IMG/VR virus record: IMGVR_UViG_3300021389_000005 | Span: 62,001 to 126,000 of that record | Source of the DNA: a virus | Length of the DNA: 64,000 bases | Direction: 5' to 3' (one strand) | Part shown: positions 1 to 63,545 of the stretch, in pieces | How the letters are laid out: the number at the start of each line of letters is the position of its first letter | Numbering within the stretch: position 1 is the stretch's first letter | Made by a program: the position numbers and the translations under genes | The notes under the pieces: model-generated | What the model saw: the letters and a program-made list of their open reading frames with translations, nothing else | The model's database searches: none | What the model was told of the DNA's origin: nothing

Positions 1-2
1 TG

Positions 3-749
3 TATTCTTTACACCATGACATGCCAGATATTGGTAACTTAATTAAAACTAGACTTAAAGCCGGTACAGATTTATTTAAAACACTTGAATCTAGAATTGA
101 AGAAGCTACAGAAATCTGTATGGAAATACAAAAGATTGATCATATTGAAAAAACTGAAAAATTATGTTTTGGTGATAGTCACTCTTTTGGAATGTATCAA
201 GCAGGATATATGTGCCAAAGACACGATGGATTAACAATGCACGGTGCACTTAAGCGCGGTTTACAAAGCTATGTTTATCCATGGGTAAATGAACTTACAG
301 TTTATATGGGTAATATCGATGTTCGACATCATCTAATGCGTCAGTCAAATCCAAGCGCTGCGGTTAAAGTACTTATAAAAAGATACGAAGAAGAACTTAT
401 CGGATTAGGCATTAATAACATTGAAATTGTAAATGTTTTACCTATTGAAAACGAAAGTAGACCTTTACCAAAAACAGGGTACTATAAAGGAACACCTTTT
501 GCTGGGACTTGGAATGAACGTACAGAATTAGTTAAAGAAATTAATACTGGAATAGAAGACATGGCACAAAGAAACAACTGGAAGGTTTATAAACACCCAG
601 AAGTTTATTTTAACGCCAAAGGTGAATTAACTTTTGATGTAATGGAAAAACCTAAATCTGTACATATATCCAGAGAATATTATAGATGGAACATGGAAAA
701 AAACGAAGCAAATAAAAATTTAATTAAACAAACACTATCTTTATTTTAA
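3..749 (+). CDS. SGNH-hydrolase-like protein, 5'-partial
   Basis: The frame is open to the first base of the window, so the true start probably lies upstream. An internal ATG at 21 would give 242 residues. The motifs resemble SGNH/GDSL esterases: GDSHSFG near residue 49 (counted from the internal ATG), GNIDVRHH near residue 97 as a block III-like motif, and SVHIS near the C-terminus, which could carry the catalytic His. The usual Asp of a DxxH pair is not obvious. It heads a tightly packed run of genes that looks like a DNA or nucleotide modification cassette; the next ORF overlaps its stop by one base. The C-terminus ends in LSLF, resembling the clamp-binding tails of T4-type proteins. The substrate is unknown. 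The fold assignment rests on short motifs only. Confidence 0.5.
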   Translation, partial: YSLHHDMPDIGNLIKTRLKAGTDLFKTLESRIEEATEICMEIQKIDHIEKTEKLCFGDSHSFGMYQAGYMCQRHDGLTMHGALKRGLQSYVYPWVNELTVYMGNIDVRHHLMRQSNPSAAVKVLIKRYEEELIGLGINNIEIVNVLPIENESRPLPKTGYYKGTPFAGTWNERTELVKEINTGIEDMAQRNNWKVYKHPEVYFNAKGELTFDVMEKPKSVHISREYYRWNMEKNEANKNLIKQTLSLF

Positions 750-898
750 TGAAAGCAGACGAAAAATTCAACATAGAAATTACCTACAACGGATCAGGTA
801 AAACCGAAACAATAGTAATAGAAACTAAAGACATCGAGTGGTCAATGACACAATTTCAAAGAAATAGACCATCGTTTAATTGGAAAATTATAGATTAA
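749..898 (+). CDS. small hypothetical protein (49 aa)
   Basis: The ATG at 749 overlaps the last base of the upstream stop codon, and the ORF ends two bases before the next start at 900, so the three genes are probably translationally coupled. The protein has alternating hydrophobic and charged residues that could form a small beta-sheet, followed by a short aromatic C-terminal strand. No family is recognised. It is called because it exactly fills the space between two coding genes. Confidence 0.55.
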   Translation: MKADEKFNIEITYNGSGKTETIVIETKDIEWSMTQFQRNRPSFNWKIID

Positions 899-899
899 A

Positions 900-1697
900 A
901 TGCAAATATCTCCAAATGAAATAGCTAGAATAGCACAAATAGCATTTGTTCTAGAACCTATAGCTAATAAACCTGGATTAACAACTAGATATGCCGATAG
1001 GAATAGAAACTTAAAGCTAGAAAACTTCCTAGTAGCTGGTATTAATACAGGAGATTCATTTAGAGAATTAGCAAAACGAGTTTACGAATCTAAAGATTTA
1101 CCAATAACGTATGATATTGCACTACAAGCTCAAAAAGATTCATTTAAAAATAGACAAGGTAGTAGACTTATATATGGCGGTATAATTAGTTTATTTCCAT
1201 TGATCATAACACAAACACATATCCGGTCAACTGATCCATATGCAATTCTAAGCAATGTAGAAGATGTATTAAAACAAACACACAGAGAAGATGCAGTACA
1301 TCTTCAAGAGTTAGAAAACTATGCTTATAGTTTTGGTATTAATCATAAACAATATATGTTTGAAGTAAAGGATGAATATGAAAATGTCTGGGATTATTTA
1401 GAAAAAGATTTGATATCAATAGGAGAAATAACACAAACACATTGGAAGGACAGAGCTAAAACAGGATCATCGAATAAAGAAATATTGAATGGATATCCTA
1501 TTGTAAAGGCCATGTTAGATATTTATTACAGTACTATAAAAAATAAAGAATGGCGAGGAATAAGTCAAACAACAGAAGAAATAGATTTCTTAATAAGAAG
1601 AGAATTTCCAAATGCACACATTCAGTGGTTAGCAGATCTACATGTATGTTTGATGTATTTGATCTTATGTCATGAAAATAAAGAATTTTTTGTATAA
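900..1697 (+). CDS. CitG/MdcB-family (triphosphoribosyl-dephospho-CoA synthase-like) protein
   Basis: The first 100 residues match the family pattern I know from CitG/MdcB and its archaeal relatives: an N-terminal helix ending in LEPIANKPGL followed by TTRY (the ..E..A.KPG...R signature), then LENFLVAGINTG (like FEDFL.SA), then a glycine-rich helix YGGIISLFPLI in place of the NT.LG...L.PL segment. Known family members remove adenine from ATP to make a 2'-linked triphosphoribosyl donor for citrate or malonate decarboxylase. No decarboxylase is present here. The gene lies directly before two amino acid:DNA-transferase-like genes and a PLP-fold gene, so a role in making a modified base or its donor is possible. 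That role is inference; the family match is by eye. Confidence 0.5.
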   Translation: MQISPNEIARIAQIAFVLEPIANKPGLTTRYADRNRNLKLENFLVAGINTGDSFRELAKRVYESKDLPITYDIALQAQKDSFKNRQGSRLIYGGIISLFPLIITQTHIRSTDPYAILSNVEDVLKQTHREDAVHLQELENYAYSFGINHKQYMFEVKDEYENVWDYLEKDLISIGEITQTHWKDRAKTGSSNKEILNGYPIVKAMLDIYYSTIKNKEWRGISQTTEEIDFLIRREFPNAHIQWLADLHVCLMYLILCHENKEFFV

Positions 1698-1709
1698 AAT
1701 AAAAAAGCA

Positions 1710-2918
1710 ATGAACATAACAACAACCAAATATTACGATGAATTCTTAAGATATTTTGAGCTAGCCAAAAAACAGCAAGATCTAAGTAATCTTGGTCATG
1801 TTCCACATGCAGAATCAAAACTAGATGACGAACTAATGCATCACATAGAATTATATGATGTAGTAGAACGTAAATATGCTGGATTTTCCCAAATAATCAA
1901 TGACTGTTTTTATGGTTGGAATTCAGATCATCCATATTGGTCAAGAATGGAAGCAGGATTATACACACCACAGCGAATGGAAGTGGCCACTAATTGGAAT
2001 TCTAAGAGAGACGAATTTGGCTTAGAAGAATGGCTTTACATCTTTATACTTCACAGAGTATGTGGATCTGCCATTAATTATGCTACTAAGCCTTCAGGAT
2101 ATCACAACACTATTTTATTTAATTTACACGAATGTGAAACTATAGAAGAAATGTGTGAAGTGATCAAACATCATCCTACACCCTTTTATACTTCAGTTGG
2201 TTATCAATTTCCAGCATTTCCAAAACCACCAAAACCAGAAGTTAATGAAGATTCATTCGTTGGCATGTCAGGTTTTACAAAACCAGAATATGTGTATAAA
2301 AGAGGTGGAGATTATTTCTTATGTGAATTTGCACCAAGAATGGCCAGAGACATGGCAAACTTCTTAAGAGAAGGTGGTAAAAAAGACTTAAGAGAATTGG
2401 GTGAATGGATGTTTAAGTGGAATGCAGATAATGGCTTAAGAGCTTATAGATTTCAATATGCTGCAGTTATTGCAGATGTTTGTGATTGGTACCCTGAATT
2501 TATGAATAGAGAATCAATGTTCTATTATGGTACTAACGCAGTGGAATGCATTGGCTATCTTGCAGATCCTGTAGAAAAGAAAGGTAAGAAGTCTGAAGAG
2601 TTTTTAGATGCAGTAATGACAAAGATTTATGAAGATACAGGCTCACTTCCGTATAATGCAGAAGATGTAGCATGTGACTTTATCAGATGGATAGAAAACT
2701 ATTTGAGACCTGGAAAAGATTATGCACATATAAACATGGACACTTTGTGGAATTCTTCTTCGATTATAGATCATCCATATGGTAGGCAAAAAGCTATGTT
2801 AGATTTAGGTTTAGTAGAAACATTCAATGACATGACTCAATTTCCATCAGACGACAAAGTATTACAAGGGGCAGGAGTCTCGGTTGAAGAGTATAAAAAA
2901 ATGGTAGCAAAAATATGA
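1710..2918 (+). CDS. putative amino acid:DNA transferase / thymine pyrophosphorylase-like helical protein
   Basis: A 402-residue, mostly helical, aromatic-rich protein. It contains WLYIFILHRVCGSAI near residues 107-121, LREGGKKDLRELGEWMFKW near 210-230, and a C-terminal CDFIRWIENYLRPG segment. The organisation resembles the alpha-glutamyl/putrescinyl-thymine pyrophosphorylase (ADDT) superfamily, which couples amino acids or amines to activated 5-hydroxymethyl-dU in phage DNA. It overlaps the next, similarly built gene by four bases (ATGA), and a PLP-fold gene follows. In known phage thymidine-hypermodification loci such transferases sit beside PLP enzymes. The call depends on both the sequence impression and the neighbours, and a purely hypothetical protein remains possible. 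Confidence 0.42.
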   Translation: MNITTTKYYDEFLRYFELAKKQQDLSNLGHVPHAESKLDDELMHHIELYDVVERKYAGFSQIINDCFYGWNSDHPYWSRMEAGLYTPQRMEVATNWNSKRDEFGLEEWLYIFILHRVCGSAINYATKPSGYHNTILFNLHECETIEEMCEVIKHHPTPFYTSVGYQFPAFPKPPKPEVNEDSFVGMSGFTKPEYVYKRGGDYFLCEFAPRMARDMANFLREGGKKDLRELGEWMFKWNADNGLRAYRFQYAAVIADVCDWYPEFMNRESMFYYGTNAVECIGYLADPVEKKGKKSEEFLDAVMTKIYEDTGSLPYNAEDVACDFIRWIENYLRPGKDYAHINMDTLWNSSSIIDHPYGRQKAMLDLGLVETFNDMTQFPSDDKVLQGAGVSVEEYKKMVAKI

Positions 2919-4021
2919 GTGAAGAAGTAAAAGAAATCAAAAAAGAAATTAAGCAAGCACCCGATCAAGGTGTTTTGTTTACATTTGATGATGATATCAC
3001 ACAAGAGTACAGTAACATCACTTATGACGGAACTAATACAAATATAAAATTTAAGAAGAAGAAACCTGCAGAAAGTTGGATGAAAGACTGGTCAGAAGAA
3101 TTGAGATTAGCTAAATTCTTTGAATTCTGTCATGAGTTTGATAAGCGAGAAGATAGATTACTATTAGAAGATTATCAAATATTTTCCCATAGATTACACT
3201 GGCATGAACATCCTTATTGTTATATGATGCAACATGAGACAGATCTAGAAAAATTACTTTATTATACTATTGTGTTTTCATTCTCTAACGAACATTGGGG
3301 AACCATTACTAAATTAATTAATCAAGGTGAAGAAAAGACTAGAGCACATTTTGTAGAAAATAGACATGCTAGGAATGATTTATTTCAGATCTATTATCCT
3401 AAAGGTACAATAGTTAAAGATTGGTTAATTGAAGGACCTAAAAAAGCAGCTAAAGACATGGCTCATATTCTAGAAGATTTAGAAAGACCATACACAATGA
3501 TGGAGTTTGCTAAATTATTAGAAGCTTATTTTAAAGAACATCAAAACTTTAGATCACCTTTATATCCATGCAAAAACACAGCAAGATATGTAGCTATGAG
3601 TAGACCAGATCTTGTTGATCCTGAATCTATTTTATTCGGAGGTACTGGACATTTTGATGGTATGCAACAAATATTCGGTGGAGTTAATCTTAATGGTAAA
3701 GTAAAATATTCTATTGACTCAGATGGACAATTTATTGCAGAGAATAAACATGCTGAAGAATGGCTAAGACAAATGGATGTACTTGTAAATCATCCAAATA
3801 ATCCAATGGAAAGTCAAAAGTATTTAAACGTAGAAGATAAAACATGTTTCTTCTATAAACACATTGCAATTAGTCATGGCATAAAATCACCAACAAAAAG
3901 AATTCCATATACATGGATATTTGATGGTAAATTTAATTTAGCTAAGAATCCAGATAAAGAAATTAATGTTAACGCAGATACTACTCGACATTTATGGGGT
4001 AGAGATTATCCAAACGAATAA
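2915..4021 (+). CDS. second putative amino acid:DNA transferase-like protein
   Basis: A 368-residue protein with an acidic/basic N-terminal tail of about 60 residues and a helical core. Conserved-looking blocks are YYTIVFSFSNEHWG near residue 110, CKNTARYVAMSRPDLVDPES near 222-241, and GGTGHFDGMQQIFGG near 245. The helical region and the Asn/Arg/Asp-rich central block recall the clade-3 alpha-glutamyl/putrescinyl-thymine pyrophosphorylase-like family, although I cannot align it without a search. Its start codon overlaps the previous stop (ATGA), so the two products are probably made in equal amounts and may form a complex or act in sequence. Confidence 0.42.
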   Translation: MSEEVKEIKKEIKQAPDQGVLFTFDDDITQEYSNITYDGTNTNIKFKKKKPAESWMKDWSEELRLAKFFEFCHEFDKREDRLLLEDYQIFSHRLHWHEHPYCYMMQHETDLEKLLYYTIVFSFSNEHWGTITKLINQGEEKTRAHFVENRHARNDLFQIYYPKGTIVKDWLIEGPKKAAKDMAHILEDLERPYTMMEFAKLLEAYFKEHQNFRSPLYPCKNTARYVAMSRPDLVDPESILFGGTGHFDGMQQIFGGVNLNGKVKYSIDSDGQFIAENKHAEEWLRQMDVLVNHPNNPMESQKYLNVEDKTCFFYKHIAISHGIKSPTKRIPYTWIFDGKFNLAKNPDKEINVNADTTRHLWGRDYPNE

Positions 4022-4024
4022 AAT

Positions 4025-4921
4025 ATGGCACACGATAAACACACAACAAGTTCAATGAATCAAGATTTAAATCTTATGATGCCTAATAGACAGGCATGGT
4101 TAGATTTAGCAGGAGATTGGCAAGATCCACTAGATGATCCAATTATTGTGAATCATGAAGGATTTAATGTAGTAAGAGATGATATGATGGGCTTTGGATC
4201 TAAATGTAGATTTGGAGATATCTTAGTACAGAAAGCACCGACCGATACATTAGTATATGTACAACCTAGATTTGGATTCGCAGGAATTTCTCTTGCATAC
4301 TTAGCAAAAAAATATAATAAGAAATTAGTATTATTTATGCCATCTGGTAAAGTAATATCAGATCATCAAGCCATATGTATTGAAAGAGGTGCTATTGCTA
4401 AATTTAGAAGAATCGCAGCAATGCCTAATTTAAATAGAATTGCAAAACAATGGGCAGAAGATAACAACGCTACATTTATTCCACTAGGACTTAAACATGA
4501 ATTGGTAACTGCAGCTGCGGTAAAAGTTGCATATGATGTAGCAGAAAAACACGGATATCCGGAAGAAGTATGGTCAGCAATATCAACTGGAGTTTTACAA
4601 CGCTCTTTACAAATTGCATGGCCAGATGCTGAATTTAATGCAGTTGCAGTTTCTAGAAATATTCAGAACGGTGAATTGGGTAGAGCTAAAGTTTGGTCTC
4701 ATCCAAAGGCATTTGCATCAGATGTAAAACCAGAATTTGCCCCTCCGTTTCCATCAGCAATGAACTACGATGCAAAAGCTTGGGAATTTATGGTTAAGCA
4801 TGGAAATCAAGGAGCTTGGTTTTGGAATGTAGGTGGACAACCTTACCCAGAATCAGAAGAAACTAAAGAAAAAACAAATTCAAAAAGAGAATGGGGAGAA
4901 GTTTTAGAAATAGACAAATAA
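4025..4921 (+). CDS. PLP-dependent-fold enzyme (tryptophan synthase beta / ACC deaminase-like)
   Basis: The 298-residue sequence follows a fold-type II PLP enzyme. LVYVQPRFGFAGISLAYLAKKY corresponds to the Asn/Gly-rich loop and helix that hold the substrate carboxylate, then KKLVLFMPSGKV, a GAIAKFRRI strand, IPLGLKHELVTAAAV, and a glycine turn STGVLQRSLQIAWP where the phosphate-binding loop would be. The C-terminal PPFPSAMNYDAKAW and GAWFWNVGG blocks are typical of a phage subfamily I recall. The Schiff-base lysine may be the Lys in the LVQKAP segment. It lies 4 bp after the transferase-like gene. In phage thymidine hypermodification a PLP enzyme processes the amino-acid-substituted base; that role is inferred here. 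Confidence 0.6.
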   Translation: MAHDKHTTSSMNQDLNLMMPNRQAWLDLAGDWQDPLDDPIIVNHEGFNVVRDDMMGFGSKCRFGDILVQKAPTDTLVYVQPRFGFAGISLAYLAKKYNKKLVLFMPSGKVISDHQAICIERGAIAKFRRIAAMPNLNRIAKQWAEDNNATFIPLGLKHELVTAAAVKVAYDVAEKHGYPEEVWSAISTGVLQRSLQIAWPDAEFNAVAVSRNIQNGELGRAKVWSHPKAFASDVKPEFAPPFPSAMNYDAKAWEFMVKHGNQGAWFWNVGGQPYPESEETKEKTNSKREWGEVLEIDK

Positions 4922-4972
4922 AAACTGAAACTATCTCAAATAAGATCATAGGAATAATATACAAAAAAGAAC

Positions 4973-5437
4973 ATGGCGAACATAGACAACAAATGCGCAG
5001 ATCTTGATATTCAAGATTATCACAAAGATACCAAAGACACTTTTGGTTTACTCTTTGACAAACAAAAAGAATTACAAGCTAGATTAGGTTTTGACTTTAA
5101 AGGTTGGAGCATTAAAGAGATTGCAGATTTCTGGATGGTGAATAAACATGCAATGAGCGACGAGCTTAATGAAATGTTTGATGCACTTGGAGGAATTAAC
5201 GACGGAATCGGCAATGCAGGTTGGAAATATTGGAAAAAGGATAATGCTAAGACTCCTGAAATGAAAATTGAAGATCTTAGTGAAGAAGACAAATTAGAGT
5301 TATTTTATGAGTGGATTGACGGTCTTCATTTTTATATGAACTTTGCAATTTCAATTGGCATGACAAGTAAAGACATTGTTAACTTGTACATGGCAAAGAA
5401 CGCAGAGAATCACGACAGACAAGAACGAGGATATTAA
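4973..5437 (+). CDS. dimeric all-alpha dUTPase (dUTPase_2 / MazG-like superfamily)
   Basis: Hydrolyses dUTP to dUMP and pyrophosphate. The 154-residue protein shows the family layout: a DKQKELQARLGFDF helix, SDELNEMFDALGG with acidic metal ligands, WKYWKKDN, a second acidic helix LFYEWIDGLHFYMNFA, and the C-terminal signature YMAKNAENHDRQERGY. This matches the dimeric dUTPases of phages and kinetoplastids rather than the trimeric beta fold. It follows the PLP-fold gene after a 51 bp gap. Besides keeping uracil out of DNA, it would supply dUMP for a modified pyrimidine pathway, though no thymidylate synthase or hydroxymethylase lies in this window. Confidence 0.8.
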   Translation: MANIDNKCADLDIQDYHKDTKDTFGLLFDKQKELQARLGFDFKGWSIKEIADFWMVNKHAMSDELNEMFDALGGINDGIGNAGWKYWKKDNAKTPEMKIEDLSEEDKLELFYEWIDGLHFYMNFAISIGMTSKDIVNLYMAKNAENHDRQERGY

Positions 5438-5458: not shown

Positions 5459-6862
5459 ATGCTATTAGATATAGAGCAAAAAGAAAACGAAGTCATAATC
5501 AGTTATTACGATAAAGAAGGCAAAGTATCATTTAAAAGATATTCTGTTAACAAATTTGAAAATTGGGTAGTTACTGAAGAAAAGGATCGTTGGAAAGATA
5601 TTAAATTTAGAAACTGGGATAATCGCCCAATTAAGAGATCTATCTCAAGAAGTTTTAATAAATTTAGTTTGCTCTATTTTATGGATTCTCTACCACAAAA
5701 GGATCAAGATGAAATCTTCGAATTTAATATGCCACGCACATACTTTGTGGATATTGAAACTGAAATTGTAGATGGTTTCCCAAAAGCAGAAGAAGCTAAA
5801 ACCAGAATTCTATCATTCTCTATCATTACACCTGAACGTAAAGCAATTGTTTTAGGTTTAGAAGATATGAGTTCAGATCAAATCAAAAAGATTGAAGATG
5901 ATACCAATGCTCATTTTAAAGATTATGATCAGGATTGGGAATTCAGTTATTACAAGTTTGATGACGAGTATAACATGGTATATACATTCTTACATAAGTT
6001 TTTACCTAAGTTCCCAATGATGACTGGTTGGAATTTCATCAACTATGACTGGCAGTATATAGTTAATAGGTGTAAAAGATTACAAATAGACCTGACTGAC
6101 GTGGCAATCACTGGATCTTTAGATAGAAACGATAGTAGACCATTACACATGGGAATATTAGATTATATGCAGCTATATGATAAATATGATAGATCAGTTG
6201 CTGTAAAAGAATCTAATTCATTAGACTTTGTATCTAGCGCAGTATTAGATGTTGCAAAGATTAAATACACTGGTGGTTTACAAGAACTATACGAAAATAA
6301 CTTCCAAAAATATATTTACTATAACGTGGTCGATTCATGTTTAGTATATTATATAGATAAACAACTTAGATCAATGGAAGTACTATTGACATTAGCAACT
6401 ATAACTAGAATGCCACTTTACAAAGCAGCATCTCCAGTGGCAGTAACAGAAGCGCTTATAGCTAGAAAGCTAATCGGTCAAAATAAAAAAATTGGAATGG
6501 AATGGAATAAAGAAGATGCAAAGAAAGACGGTAAATTTGAAGGAGCATTCGTTAAACAACCAATTGTAGGTTATTACTCTGGAGTTTCAGCGTTTGATTT
6601 TGCATCTCTATATCCATCAATTATGCGTCAATTTAATATATCTCCGGATGCATTTGTTGAACAAGTAAATGAAATGGATATTCCAGAAAGAAGAAAAGAT
6701 AAAGACGTAATCGTCTGTGAAAACGGAGTTGTTTATAAGAAAGAAGATAGTATTCTTAAAAAAATATTGGCAGATTTATATGGCCAACGTAAAGAATATA
6801 AAAAGACTTCTTATGAATATTATGAAAAAGCCCACGAACTAGAAAAAAAATTAAAGTCATAA
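5459..6862 (+). CDS. 43A: DNA polymerase family B, N-terminal half (exonuclease domain and palm motif A)
   Basis: A 467-residue fragment of T4 gp43-type polymerase. The 3'-5' exonuclease motif DIETE is near residue 97, further exonuclease motifs follow (GWNFINYDW, then YYNVVDS), and palm motif A reads DFASLYPSIMRQFNISP near residue 380. The protein stops in the fingers just after the YGQRKEYKK helix and lacks motifs B and C. Those are in a separate gene at 11475-12683, about 4.6 kb downstream. Together the two pieces total 869 residues, against 898 for T4 gp43. No intein motifs are visible at the break. The two chains presumably associate to form the active enzyme. Confidence 0.9.
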   Translation: MLLDIEQKENEVIISYYDKEGKVSFKRYSVNKFENWVVTEEKDRWKDIKFRNWDNRPIKRSISRSFNKFSLLYFMDSLPQKDQDEIFEFNMPRTYFVDIETEIVDGFPKAEEAKTRILSFSIITPERKAIVLGLEDMSSDQIKKIEDDTNAHFKDYDQDWEFSYYKFDDEYNMVYTFLHKFLPKFPMMTGWNFINYDWQYIVNRCKRLQIDLTDVAITGSLDRNDSRPLHMGILDYMQLYDKYDRSVAVKESNSLDFVSSAVLDVAKIKYTGGLQELYENNFQKYIYYNVVDSCLVYYIDKQLRSMEVLLTLATITRMPLYKAASPVAVTEALIARKLIGQNKKIGMEWNKEDAKKDGKFEGAFVKQPIVGYYSGVSAFDFASLYPSIMRQFNISPDAFVEQVNEMDIPERRKDKDVIVCENGVVYKKEDSILKKILADLYGQRKEYKKTSYEYYEKAHELEKKLKS

Positions 6863-11474: not shown

Positions 11475-12683
11475 ATGAATATCGAAGAGCTAGAAAATAA
11501 ATCTATCGAGGAATTAAATGATAATGAGGCGAAGCTGCTTGTAGATCACTACAAGCAGCTTTCAGCCAAATACACTGCATATGAACAAGCAGTTAAGTTA
11601 ACACTAAACTCGATCTACGGAGCCTTCGGTAATAAGTGGTTCCACTTTTTTAATATTGACATTGCCGAGTCAATTACAAAACAAGGTAAAAACGCAATTC
11701 TTTATTCAGAAACTATTCTCAACAAATATGTTAATGAGTTTTGGCACAAAGATGCTGCAGTACATTCTCACTTTGGAATTAAAGTAAAAGGTAAAATAGA
11801 AAAGCCAGCAGTAATTTATATTGATACAGATTCATGTTATGTACAGTTTCAAGATTTATATGAATCTATAATTTGGCCAGAAGAAACAGAGAAAATGGAA
11901 ATCGATGTGTTTATTTTAGCACTTTATGGTTTCAGACTTAGAGATTACATTACTAAGTGTATGGAGAAATATGCAGATAAAAGAAACTCAGATAATTATT
12001 TGATGTTTGAATTAGAAGCGCTTGCATATAATGGTATTTGGATGTCTAAGAAAAAGTATATTCAGAACATTGCATGGGATGATAAATTAGAAACCACAGA
12101 CAGGCATACTTCATTAAAGAAAATTAAAACAATTGGTTTTGATACTATTCAATCATCTACGCCTAAATTTGCAAGAGAGAAACTAGTTGAAGCTCTTAAA
12201 ATTATATTTAAAAGTAGAGTAACTCCAACAGCAGAAGATCTTCAAACATTAGTTGTTTTCATGAAAGAAACAAAAAAGCAATTTAAACTTGCAGATATTG
12301 ACGAGATTTCTTTTAATAGAAGGACTAACAATATTGACAAATATATTGTTGATGATCAGAAAGAATTTCAAATAGGTCTAAAATGTCCAGCAAACGTTAA
12401 AGCAGCCGGATATTACAATTACTTATTGAATAACAATAAAAAATATAAAAACAAATATAAGGTTATCGGTAACGGTGAAAAACTAAAGATCTACAATTGT
12501 AAATCACCAATATCTGAAGTATATGCATATATGCCAGGAGATCATCCTTATGAAATTGCACCAGAAATTGATTACGATACTCAATTTGAAAAAGCAATGA
12601 TCGATCCTCTTAATAGAGTATTAACAGCGATTGGTCTACAAACACTAGATACTAACCTAATTTACGCATCGTCGTTATTTTAA
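11475..12683 (+). CDS. 43B: DNA polymerase family B, C-terminal half (fingers, palm motifs B and C, thumb)
   Basis: A 402-residue fragment. Motif B KLTLNSIYGAFGN is near residues 40-52, and motif C YIDTDS, with the two catalytic Asp, is near 115. A thumb region follows, and the C-terminus SSLF resembles the clamp-binding tail of T4 gp43. The first about 30 residues form a charged helix that would rebuild the fingers with the C-terminal helix of the fragment at 5459-6862. It starts one base after the clamp gene stop. Motif A and the exonuclease are absent, so this product cannot work alone. Confidence 0.9.
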   Translation: MNIEELENKSIEELNDNEAKLLVDHYKQLSAKYTAYEQAVKLTLNSIYGAFGNKWFHFFNIDIAESITKQGKNAILYSETILNKYVNEFWHKDAAVHSHFGIKVKGKIEKPAVIYIDTDSCYVQFQDLYESIIWPEETEKMEIDVFILALYGFRLRDYITKCMEKYADKRNSDNYLMFELEALAYNGIWMSKKKYIQNIAWDDKLETTDRHTSLKKIKTIGFDTIQSSTPKFAREKLVEALKIIFKSRVTPTAEDLQTLVVFMKETKKQFKLADIDEISFNRRTNNIDKYIVDDQKEFQIGLKCPANVKAAGYYNYLLNNNKKYKNKYKVIGNGEKLKIYNCKSPISEVYAYMPGDHPYEIAPEIDYDTQFEKAMIDPLNRVLTAIGLQTLDTNLIYASSLF

Positions 12684-58139: not shown

Positions 58140-58907
58140 ATGAAAATTGATAAAATTTACATATTAGCAATAGATCATACTCCTGAAAAAGTAAAGTCTA
58201 TTGAAAATAAATTAGAGACTATCGGCTTTGATGACAATACGCCATATGAGATTTTATACGGACACAATGGTTGGAAATCAGAACTACCTGATAATTGCAA
58301 TGTTTATAAGAATTGGGCCCAACCAGAAAGTTGGAATGATTTTTGGAAATTAGAACCTCAACCTGGTGAAATAGGATGTGCACTTTCACATAATATGGCT
58401 TGGAAAAAAATCATAGAAGATAATATTTCCAGAGCATTAATCTTAGAAGAAGATTTTGTTTTTAAAAAATCATTTAAAGACTTAGAAGAACCTTCTGAAG
58501 GTTGGCCTTATAAATGGGATTATTTGACACTAGGAAGATATGTATTTAATTATGATAACGATATTAAGTTAAACGATACCTATTGTATTCCTTCTTTACA
58601 TTATAATATGCACGCATATGTGTTAACACACTTAGGAGCTCAAAAGCTTATAAGTTATAAATTAGAAGAAAACATATTTCCATGTGATGAATTCATAACA
58701 GCTACTTACATGAATCACAGGAGATGGGATATTGAAGAAATGTTCCCCGTTAAATTGATCAATGCACTTGCTACAAATGAAAAGTGGATAGGACAAACTT
58801 CAGATGCAGAATCTACAACAGTAAGTGCTCACACCAAAACATTTGAAAATAAAGATAGAAATTCTTTATTAGAAAGATCTCGACTAAAAGAAACAAACAA
58901 AAACTAG
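58140..58907 (+). CDS. glycosyltransferase family 25 (LPS-type)
   Basis: 255 residues. IDKIYILAIDHTPEK at the N-terminus, GEIGCALSHNMAWKKIIEDN near 80-99, RALILEEDFVF with the DxD-like acidic motif near 103-113, and DYLTLGRYV then HAYVLTHLGAQKLI near the C-terminus are the GT25 hallmarks. Family members transfer galactose or glucose to lipo-oligosaccharide; some phages may use glycosyltransferases on DNA or proteins. The acceptor is unknown. Confidence 0.78.
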   Translation: MKIDKIYILAIDHTPEKVKSIENKLETIGFDDNTPYEILYGHNGWKSELPDNCNVYKNWAQPESWNDFWKLEPQPGEIGCALSHNMAWKKIIEDNISRALILEEDFVFKKSFKDLEEPSEGWPYKWDYLTLGRYVFNYDNDIKLNDTYCIPSLHYNMHAYVLTHLGAQKLISYKLEENIFPCDEFITATYMNHRRWDIEEMFPVKLINALATNEKWIGQTSDAESTTVSAHTKTFENKDRNSLLERSRLKETNKN

Positions 58908-61687: not shown

Positions 61688-61772
61688 GCCGTTGTGATGG
61701 AATTGGTAGACATGACAGACTTAAAATCTGTTGGGCTGAAAGCCCGTGGCGGTTCGAGCCCGCCCAGCGGTA
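61688..61772 (+). tRNA. tRNA-Leu (anticodon UAA)
   Basis: Class II tRNA: acceptor GCCGTTG/CAGCGGT, anticodon stem ACAGA/TCTGT with loop CTTAAAA, a long variable arm and a GGTTCGAGCC T arm. CCA is not encoded. Confidence 0.93.
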
Positions 61773-61781
61773 CTTAGATAT

Positions 61782-61855
61782 GGACCAGTAGCACAACTGG
61801 ATAGTGCAGCACCCTTCTAAGGTGCCGGTTATAGGTTCGAATCCTATCTGGTTCA
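61782..61855 (+). tRNA. tRNA-Arg (anticodon UCU)
   Basis: Acceptor GGACCAG/CTGGTTC, anticodon stem GCACC/GGTGC with loop CTTCTAA, and a TAGGTTCGAATCCTA T arm. Reads AGA. CCA is not encoded. Confidence 0.93.
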
Positions 61856-61860
61856 CAAAT

Positions 61861-61936
61861 GGTCTGGTAGTTCAGTTTTGGTTAGAATACTTGCCTGTCA
61901 CGCAAGGGGTCGCGAGTTCGAGTCTCGTCCAGACCG
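61861..61936 (+). tRNA. tRNA-Asp (anticodon GUC)
   Basis: Acceptor GGTCTGG/CCAGACC with discriminator G, anticodon stem CTTGC/GCAAG and loop CTGTCAC. The bases after the discriminator read CCA, so this is the one tRNA here that appears to encode its 3' end. Confidence 0.93.
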
Positions 61937-61946
61937 CCAATAACTT

Positions 61947-62018
61947 GCTCCGTTCGTCTAACGGTTAGGACATCAGGTTTTCATCCTGAAAATAGGAGTT
62001 CGATTCTCCTACGGAGTA
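61947..62018 (+). tRNA. tRNA-Glu (anticodon UUC)
   Basis: Acceptor GCTCCGT/ACGGAGT, anticodon stem TCAGG/CCTGA with loop TTTTCAT, and a TAGGAGTTCGATTCTCCTA T arm. CCA is not encoded. Confidence 0.93.
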
Positions 62019-62027
62019 CTAATTAAA

Positions 62028-62100
62028 TGTGCCTTGGTGTAATTGGCAACACGTCGGTTTTTGGTACCGAAGAGTCGGGGTTCGAGCCCCTGAGGCACAA
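62028..62100 (+). tRNA. tRNA-Gln (anticodon UUG)
   Basis: Acceptor TGTGCCT/AGGCACA, anticodon stem TCGGT/ACCGA with loop TTTTGGT, and a CGGGGTTCGAGCCCC T arm. CCA is not encoded. Confidence 0.92.
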
Positions 62101-62186
62101 CTTTTTAAACGTTATTTGACTTACCGAAAAAAATAGATCATAGATCGAGTCTTGCACCTCTACATAGATTAAGGTGTTTTCAACAT

Positions 62187-62260
62187 GGGGATGTAGCTCA
62201 GTTGGTTAGAGCAGGACTCTTATATAGTCAAGGTCGTGGGTTCGATTCCCGCCATCCCTA
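62187..62260 (+). tRNA. tRNA-Ile (anticodon UAU)
   Basis: Acceptor GGGGATG/CATCCCT, D stem GCTC/GAGC, anticodon stem GGACT/AGTCA (outer pair G-A mismatched) with loop CTTATAT, T stem GTGGG/CCCGC. The UAU anticodon reads AUA, common in this genome. CCA is not encoded (CCCA follows). Confidence 0.88.
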
Positions 62261-62285
62261 CCCAAAGACAACTATGATTTATTAA

Positions 62286-62358
62286 GATCTCTTAGCTCAG
62301 TTGGTAGAGCATCACACTTTTAATGTGAGGGTCCAGGGTTCGAGCCCCTGAGGGATCA
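62286..62358 (+). tRNA. tRNA-Lys (anticodon UUU)
   Basis: Acceptor GATCTCT/AGGGATC, anticodon stem TCACA/TGTGA with loop CTTTTAA, T stem CAGGG/CCCTG. CCA is not encoded. Confidence 0.93.
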
Positions 62359-62369
62359 CAGGTTACGAA

Positions 62370-62379
62370 GATATATAAT
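62370..62379 (+). promoter_or_regulatory. late promoter motif (class A) for the CCA-adding enzyme
   Basis: GATATATAAT, 30 nt before the start codon at 62400 and 12 nt after the last tRNA. Confidence 0.6.
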
Positions 62380-62399
62380 ATGAAAAATAAAGTATAATA

Positions 62400-63545
62400 A
62401 TGCAACTACAAAAATTCAGTAATTTTATGCTTTTGAAAGAAGCTGAAACAAAACTCCAAGTTAATGTACCCTCGGATATATTAGACTTGTACACACTGTT
62501 CAAAAAGAATGGCAAGGAATTGTACATTGTTGGCGGTGCAGTAAGAGATGCGTTATTGGGTAAAAAGCCAAAAGATTTTGATTTGGCTACCGATGCATTT
62601 CCAGCAGAAGTTATTGATATCGTTACTAAAGGAGGTTATTCAACAACAGGTGAAGTTGGACACCAATTTGGTGTAGTTATTGTAAATGTACCTTCAGATC
62701 CAGCTGGTGTTGAAATTGCCACTTTCAGAGAAGACATTGGAAAAGGTAGAAGACCAGATGCAGTTGAGTATTCCACAATAGATAAAGATGTATTAAGACG
62801 TGATTTAACAATTAATGCTTTATTCTATGATATGGGCAGAAATGAAGTTGTCGATTTAGTTGGAGGTCTAGATGATATAAAGAATTCAAAGATTAGAACT
62901 GTCGGTGTTGCTGCTGATAGATTTGCTGAGGATCCACTAAGAAAACTAAGAGCATTAAGATTTGCTGGTAGAACTGGTTCAAATCTGGAAGAAGAGACAG
63001 CAAACGCAATTTTAACAGATAACAGTTTAGAAGGTATCAGCGCAGAGAGAATTAGAGATGAGTTTAAAAAATCTATTGTTTCTGCTAAGTCCGCTAAGAA
63101 GTACTTAGAGATGGTCTCTGAATTTAATCTATGGTCTATTATGTTTCCTACATTAGAGATCAATAAAAAATTCATAGATACTAATACTTGGCTTGTTCAA
63201 TTAGGTACTCTGTTCATGAATAATGAACATAAGAAAGAAATGAATAAGTTAACATTTACTAATGACGAAATAGACGCTTGTATTTTCTTAAACAAGATAA
63301 TGACGTTTGATGTTAATGATGTGTTTGATTTACATAAACAATTTAAGAATGCCAAAATAGATAAAAAAGATGTTTTAGAATTTGCAAAGATTCATAAGTT
63401 AGATGTAAAAACTCTAAAGGCATTCTTTAAATATAAACCATCAACCAATGGCAAAGATGTGATGAAGCAGTTTGGTGTAAAAGGCCCAGAGGTTGCGCTT
63501 AAAATTAAACAAATTGAATCTGATAAATTTCAGAAATTGATTTAA
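62400..63545 (+). CDS. cca: tRNA nucleotidyltransferase / CCA-adding enzyme
   Basis: 381 residues. Class II nucleotidyltransferase head: YIVGGAVRDALLG near residues 42-54, DFDLATDAFP near 60 with the metal-binding DxD, GHQFGVV, and RRDLTINALFYD near 132. The neck RFAEDPLRKLRALRFAGRTG follows, and a variable helical C-terminal body comes after. It lies 42 bp downstream of the tRNA array, six of whose seven members do not encode CCA, so it most likely finishes these tRNAs. A poly(A) polymerase role cannot be excluded from sequence alone. Confidence 0.88.
   Translation: MQLQKFSNFMLLKEAETKLQVNVPSDILDLYTLFKKNGKELYIVGGAVRDALLGKKPKDFDLATDAFPAEVIDIVTKGGYSTTGEVGHQFGVVIVNVPSDPAGVEIATFREDIGKGRRPDAVEYSTIDKDVLRRDLTINALFYDMGRNEVVDLVGGLDDIKNSKIRTVGVAADRFAEDPLRKLRALRFAGRTGSNLEEETANAILTDNSLEGISAERIRDEFKKSIVSAKSAKKYLEMVSEFNLWSIMFPTLEINKKFIDTNTWLVQLGTLFMNNEHKKEMNKLTFTNDEIDACIFLNKIMTFDVNDVFDLHKQFKNAKIDKKDVLEFAKIHKLDVKTLKAFFKYKPSTNGKDVMKQFGVKGPEVALKIKQIESDKFQKLI

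Follow-up and report, generated by a model that had tools for sequence, protein, structure and literature searches.

Pseudomonas phage M6 and Salmonella phage ViI hypermodify thymidine by means of loci that encode a 5-hydroxymethyldeoxyuridine (5-hmdU) DNA kinase, an amino acid:DNA transferase (ADDT), a pyridoxal phosphate (PLP) enzyme and a radical SAM protein. Phages T4 and RB69 glycosylate 5-hydroxymethylcytosine (hmC) with the help of gp42, gp56 and glucosyl- or arabinosyltransferases. So far as we know, 5-hydroxymethyluracil is the only base on which ADDT chemistry has been demonstrated, and the known decorations of hmC are sugars or carbamoyl. A 5-hydroxymethylcytosine carbamoyltransferase was found by MetaGPA in metagenomic phages (PMC8670742). 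Here we describe a gene cassette in a 64,000-nucleotide stretch of viral DNA (the window; bases 62001-126000 of the 126,361-base IMG/VR record IMGVR_UViG_3300021389_000005) that encodes an SGNH/GDSL-type protein, two helical proteins (HEL1 and HEL2), a PLP enzyme and a deoxynucleoside triphosphate (dNTP) pyrophosphatase. Judged from its sequence, the cassette is probably an hmC hypermodification module in which ADDT-type transferases and PLP-dependent tailoring operate without the known kinase. If this is true, an ADDT/PLP route on hmC connects two kinds of viral DNA modification that have so far stood apart, predicts that abundant aquatic viruses contain new bases, which may carry amines, and suggests a new way in which viruses disguise their DNA. 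We found no description of an ADDT-type enzyme acting with hmC in the open-access literature, and the novelty is provisional, as key subscription papers lay outside the search.

Hydroxymethylases and the probable target base

Hydroxymethylases of the thymidylate synthase (TS) family are recognized by an Asp three residues before the catalytic Cys, together with Ser94 and Tyr96, and Asp179 (E. coli TS 177) indicates dCMP rather than dUMP as the substrate (PMC6400193, PMC8670742). All 17 of the 17 TS-family proteins associated with the cassette in relatives of the window's virus have Ser94, Tyr96, Asp145, Cys148 and Asp179, which is the dCMP signature of T4 gp42. In the dUMP hydroxymethylases of M6 and SPO1, position 94 is Gly or Ala and position 179 is Asn, and the canonical TS of one relative (G001) has Leu145 and Asn179; no Asn179-type (dUMP) enzyme occurs among the 17 cassette-associated hydroxymethylases. 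The gp42-type gene lies 0-1.8 kb from HEL1 of the cassette in 12 contigs (L076, L078, L080, L081, L083-L086, L262, L296, L297 and L079, whose cassette is partial), most of which have a dCMP deaminase gene alongside it. The gp42-type protein of L078 shares 55% identity with T4 gp42 and as much as 60% with related gp42 proteins. Other relatives have a second TS-family type, located 5-6 kb downstream (L245, L251) or farther away (G001, G005, G011, G015).

The 5-hmdU DNA kinase family (PF18748) is absent from 21 cassette-bearing records, which are fragments, and was detected in the M6 control. The same records hold no TET/JBP protein (PF12851), and hydroxymethyl-dU made by TET/JBP oxidation was ruled out on this ground. 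Given the Asp179 signature and the lack of both 5-hmdU kinase and TET/JBP, no 5-hydroxymethylpyrimidine other than hmC has a visible source. A preliminary description of the window had compared the cassette with loci that act on 5-hmdU, and the dUMP hydroxymethylase and 5-hmdU kinase that it expected were sought in the contig and its relatives; neither was found, and dCMP-type hydroxymethylases turned up in 17 relatives instead. Thymidine hypermodification as in M6 and ViI, with the cassette acting on 5-hmdU and the genes for kinase and dUMP hydroxymethylase located outside it or substituted by others, would agree with the ADDT-like folds and the M6-type PLP enzyme, both known from 5-hmdU systems, but the lack of the kinase in the 21 records, the uniform Asp179 and the canonical thymidylate synthase that also occurs in close relatives make it unlikely. 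The earlier idea that base modification may have a new branch here still stands, but the most likely base is 5-hydroxymethylcytosine rather than thymidine.

The position of the cassette can be compared with that of T4-type modification genes. In distant relatives the cassette occupies the region from the polymerase to UvsX, as in L080, whose order is DNA polymerase, gp42, dCMP deaminase, HEL1, HEL2, SGNH, PLP enzyme and UvsX. The hmC arabinosylation genes of RB69-type phages sit in the same region (PMC8056088), and in T4 the beta-glucosyltransferase gene directly follows gp42. The T4/RB69 systems also share with the cassette a gp42-type enzyme (in relatives of the window's virus) and a dNTP pyrophosphatase, whereas most cassettes have ADDT-like, PLP and SGNH proteins where T4 and RB69 use glycosyltransferases. 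The MetaGPA carbamoyltransferase system is a non-sugar hmC hypermodification that, like the cassette with its predicted hmC, comes with a TS homologue of the Asp177 type and a dCMP deaminase; its transferase is unrelated to that of the cassette, and no carbamoyltransferase was seen in the cassettes. The deoxypentose-cytosine system of Shewanella phage Thanatos was ruled out as a counterpart, since its genes are different. L080 also carries a tryptophan halogenase-like gene (3120-4598) between its DNA polymerase and gp42.

The helical proteins and the PLP enzyme

HEL1 and HEL2 matched no Pfam or PHROG family. Their AlphaFold2 models are usable (predicted local distance difference test scores of 80 for HEL1 and 78 for HEL2), and the best Foldseek matches in BFVD are two proteins named 'amino acid:DNA transferase', A0A6J5L8T5 for HEL1 (E 2.5e-38, 56% identity) and A0A6J5LCY1 for HEL2 (E 7e-31, 52% identity). 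Among later fold matches are the SP10 5-hmdU DNA kinase for HEL1 (probability 0.92) and clade 1 of the alpha-glutamyl/putrescinyl thymine pyrophosphorylases (aGPT-PPlase) for HEL2 (probability 0.97). The best and next named BFVD matches thus all fall in the superfamily of ADDT, HMUDK_hel and aGPT-PPlase, with a weak cross-family template modelling score of about 0.4. On these models HEL1 and HEL2 likely belong to the ADDT superfamily, though this is not proven. An hhalign comparison of HEL1 with HEL2 gave P 0.005 over about 123 columns, a better score than ADDT and HMUDK_hel reach against each other. Searches of the PDB by sequence with either protein and by fold with HEL2 yielded nothing significant, and a match of HEL2 to the endonuclease III fold (probability 0.06) was disregarded. 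Of 444 pattern matches in IMG/VR, 415 are relatives of HEL2; neither helical protein has a match among 50,697 annotated phage records. The helical pair is not unusual in itself because M6 has two helical proteins too (ADDT and HMUDK_hel).

The PLP enzyme matches the Pfam family PALP (E=1e-4). Aligned to the PLP enzyme of M6 by hhalign, it gives a probability of 95-96% (E 1.8e-8 / 7.7e-10) over 213-221 columns, and on this profile alignment it is homologous to the enzyme of the M6 thymidine-hypermodification locus, which is flanked by genes for ADDT, radical SAM, 5-hmdU kinase, HMUDK_hel and dUMP hydroxymethylase. Its catalytic-type Lys60, which does not vary among 22 relatives, lines up with the cysteine synthase Lys; the enzyme is of fold-type II, as first described. 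The cassette thus has the ADDT-type fold and a homologous PLP enzyme in common with M6 and ViI; unlike them it has no P-loop 5-hmdU kinase, radical SAM protein or dUMP hydroxymethylase and instead has an SGNH protein and, in relatives, a dCMP hydroxymethylase. G001 also encodes a full-length cysteine synthase-like PLP enzyme (L163:581-1474) by a thymidylate synthase and a LOG-family gene. Further homologues of the PLP enzyme occur outside ADDT cassettes, in Erythrobacter phages R6L and ZS04 (L158/L159) and Microcystis phage Mae-JY30 (L160), where they are joined to or lie next to N6/N4 DNA methylase-like proteins and ParB/sulfiredoxin proteins; these loci are possibly another PLP-dependent DNA modification.

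Several observations count against an ADDT-type module acting on hmC. The ADDT names on the top fold matches were assigned automatically in UniProt and are not tests. The Pfam ADDT profile PF18724, which detects the M6 enzyme with E=2e-48, is silent on 29 HEL1 and 20 HEL2 proteins and in the 21 cassette-bearing records; PF18723 matches neither HEL1 nor HEL2, and hhalign of the two against M6 ADDT or HMUDK_hel is not significant. The proposal of two ADDT-like proteins is therefore upheld by predicted folds, which the recommended structure prediction placed closest to ADDT-named proteins for both, and not by sequence profiles. The silent profiles are weak counter-evidence because hhalign barely joins the accepted relatives ADDT and HMUDK_hel as well (P 0.012 over 26 columns). 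No activating enzyme was identified. The common occurrence of gp42 in T4-like phages makes its co-occurrence with the cassette weak evidence by itself. No TS-family gene shows up in long relatives of 150 and 165 kb or in numerous shorter fragments, and the lack of a hydroxymethylase noted earlier for the window extends to its whole 126-kb contig, which is a genome fragment and not complete. This last absence is uninformative because the corresponding gene of G001 falls in a part that the contig lacks: between about 56 and 188 kb, G001 (212 kb, with a HEL1 of 94% identity) is colinear with the window's contig, and it has its TS at 8.7 kb and a dCMP-type hydroxymethylase at 12.9-13.7 kb. The latter is frame-broken, as are many genes of the G001 record.

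A candidate pathway and the SGNH protein

The pathway proposed for hmC would begin with the dNTP pyrophosphatase, a candidate dCTPase/dUTPase with an inferred gp56-like role, and a gp42-type enzyme, which together would supply 5-hydroxymethyl-dCMP; the gp42-type enzyme is taken from relatives and expected in the unassembled part of the genome of the window's virus. A gp43-type polymerase would then put hmC into DNA, as in T4. By analogy with M6 and ViI, HEL1 and HEL2 may couple an amino acid or a similar nucleophile to the 5-methylene of hmC in DNA, and the PLP enzyme may tailor this amino acid once it is attached, in the manner of M6, decarboxylation being one possibility. More speculatively, acyl transfer or hydrolysis by the SGNH protein could activate or trim the hydroxymethyl group in place of the 5-hmdU kinase. 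The modification would presumably protect the DNA from nucleases.

The SGNH protein falls below the cut-off of Pfam Lipase_GDSL (E=0.011). Its catalytic blocks are conserved in 15 relatives, with Ser164 (GDS-H) and the C-terminal His326 invariant and block-III Asn209 kept in 14 of the 15. This supports the earlier SGNH-like assignment, whereas the gene itself lies outside the range first given to the cassette, as it starts before the window and ends at 749. Nearly all of its homologues in annotated phages belong to Aeromonas T4-like phages. In 44RR2.8t, UP87 and avDM2, about 460 extra residues are joined to the SGNH domain, and these residues match HMUDK_hel weakly but repeatedly (E 0.002-0.004; 4e-4 in another run). 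ORF233c of 44RR2.8t, a gene-42 phage, combines an SGNH domain of about 37% identity with such a fusion; unlike the cassette phages, 44RR2.8t has no HEL1 or HEL2 homologue in the annotated phage records. Gene 42 is present and a glucosyltransferase absent in the SGNH-bearing Aeromonas phages 44RR, 31 and 25, and the hmC modification of gene-42 phages without glucosyltransferases is stated to be unknown (PMC2993671). By these similarities, the fusion in 44RR, which can be grown in culture, connects an SGNH domain and a putative ADDT-like domain with hmC. We tentatively suggest that the lineage makes amino-acid-derived hypermodified cytosines, with ADDT-type transferases acting on hmC without a 5-hmdU kinase, SGNH activating and the PLP enzyme finishing, and that the fused SGNH-helical protein does likewise in 44RR-type Aeromonas phages. 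The cassette thus bears on what, if anything, 44RR, 31 and 25 put on hmC.

Gene order and genome context

The conservation survey covered 151 IMG/VR loci retrieved with HEL1 or the PLP enzyme as query. The block that recurs over these loci is SGNH-(small)-HEL1-(HEL2)-PLP-dUTPase-polymerase, and its core, SGNH-HEL1-(HEL2)-PLP, is conserved in >100 IMG/VR loci. The cassette is not a chance grouping because the order SGNH-HEL1-PLP repeats across dozens of contigs at 30-99% identity. That the locus has nothing to do with DNA modification, and that small-molecule metabolism genes (PLP, SGNH, CitG, LOG) came by chance to lie beside helical proteins, is very improbable: Pfam support is weak for several members, yet the genes keep their order beside gp42 and dCMP deaminase across distant phages, the folds are ADDT-like and the PLP enzyme is homologous to one of a known DNA-hypermodification locus.

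A further alternative is glycosylation of hmC, in which the SGNH, CitG-like and sugar genes would do the chemistry while HEL1 and HEL2 would serve only for base flipping or recognition. The known reaction of CitG is the transfer of a triphosphoribosyl group. The window encodes a GT25 family protein (58140-58907, E=6e-17), which is a candidate for glycosylating DNA or the surface; a UDP-galactopyranose mutase gene is found near SGNH in Aeromonas phage Aes012, and GT2 and UDP-galactopyranose mutase genes are inserted after PLP in L247 (9875-12155) and L236 (10646-12893), which suggests an added galactofuranose-type decoration in some relatives. Against this, sugar genes are absent from most cassettes and the PLP enzyme is present in nearly all, and CitG occurs in 4 of the 151 loci, which come from only two contigs besides that of the window, so that we hold glycosylation by the cassette to be improbable. 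The family match of the CitG protein stood (42.5 bits against a cut-off of 27, profile positions 1-195 of 284), and its rarity ruled it out as a core enzyme of the cassette.

The genes of the window's cassette are listed in Table 1. The open reading frames from the small one to the dNTP pyrophosphatase were confirmed as first reported, including the dUTPase assignment. The run had been called mostly overlapping; overlaps occur only between SGNH and the small open reading frame and between HEL1 and HEL2, and the remaining genes are tightly spaced.

Table 1. Genes of the candidate hmC hypermodification cassette (window positions)
Product	Position	Strand	Basis and remarks
SGNH/GDSL-type protein, 3' part	1..749	+	Full gene at contig 61688-62749, 353 aa; start upstream of window
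Small 49-aa open reading frame, function not assigned	749..898	+	Conserved in many relatives
CitG-family (ATP:dephospho-CoA triphosphoribosyltransferase-like) protein	900..1697	+	PF01874 (E=8.2e-11); rare insert, not core
HEL1, predicted ADDT-superfamily-like helical transferase, 402 aa	1710..2918	+	AlphaFold2 model and Foldseek; no Pfam match
HEL2, second predicted ADDT-superfamily-like helical transferase, 368 aa, optional	2915..4021	+	AlphaFold2 model and Foldseek; no Pfam match
PLP enzyme of fold-type II, homologous to the gp52-type enzyme of phage M6	4025..4921	+	PALP; hhalign; Lys60
dUTPase_2/MazG-type all-alpha dNTP pyrophosphatase	4973..5437	+	PF08761 (E=1.1e-8); phrog_173 (E=9.5e-23)

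Some relatives vary the block. A LOG-family protein replaces HEL2 between HEL1 and PLP in L039 and follows HEL2 in L231. An HhH-GPD DNA glycosylase lies directly upstream of HEL1-HEL2 in two loci without PLP or SGNH (L256:6018-6818, E=9e-10, of MBD4-like appearance, and L267:3666-4478); it may act in the repair of deaminated hmC or belong to the modification itself. DAHP synthase (E=2.6e-41) is found beside a NUDIX-like protein upstream of the cassette in L071/L072 (5497-6249).

Carriers of the cassette form a widespread, uncultivated lineage of T4-like phages from marine and freshwater sources. Pfam and PHROG profile searches show the window's genome to be T4-like, with a split family B polymerase, ribonucleotide reductase, a UvsX-like recombinase and a DnaB-like helicase, and N-termini that resemble signal peptides, MKNFILTLALAALTTFGANAQ among them, hint at a host in the Bacteroidota. 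The gp43-like polymerase is split in two genes (5459-6862 and 11475-12683) with NrdB and NrdA between them. Seven tRNA genes lie at 61688-62359, followed by a CCA-adding/polyA polymerase-like gene at 62400-63545.

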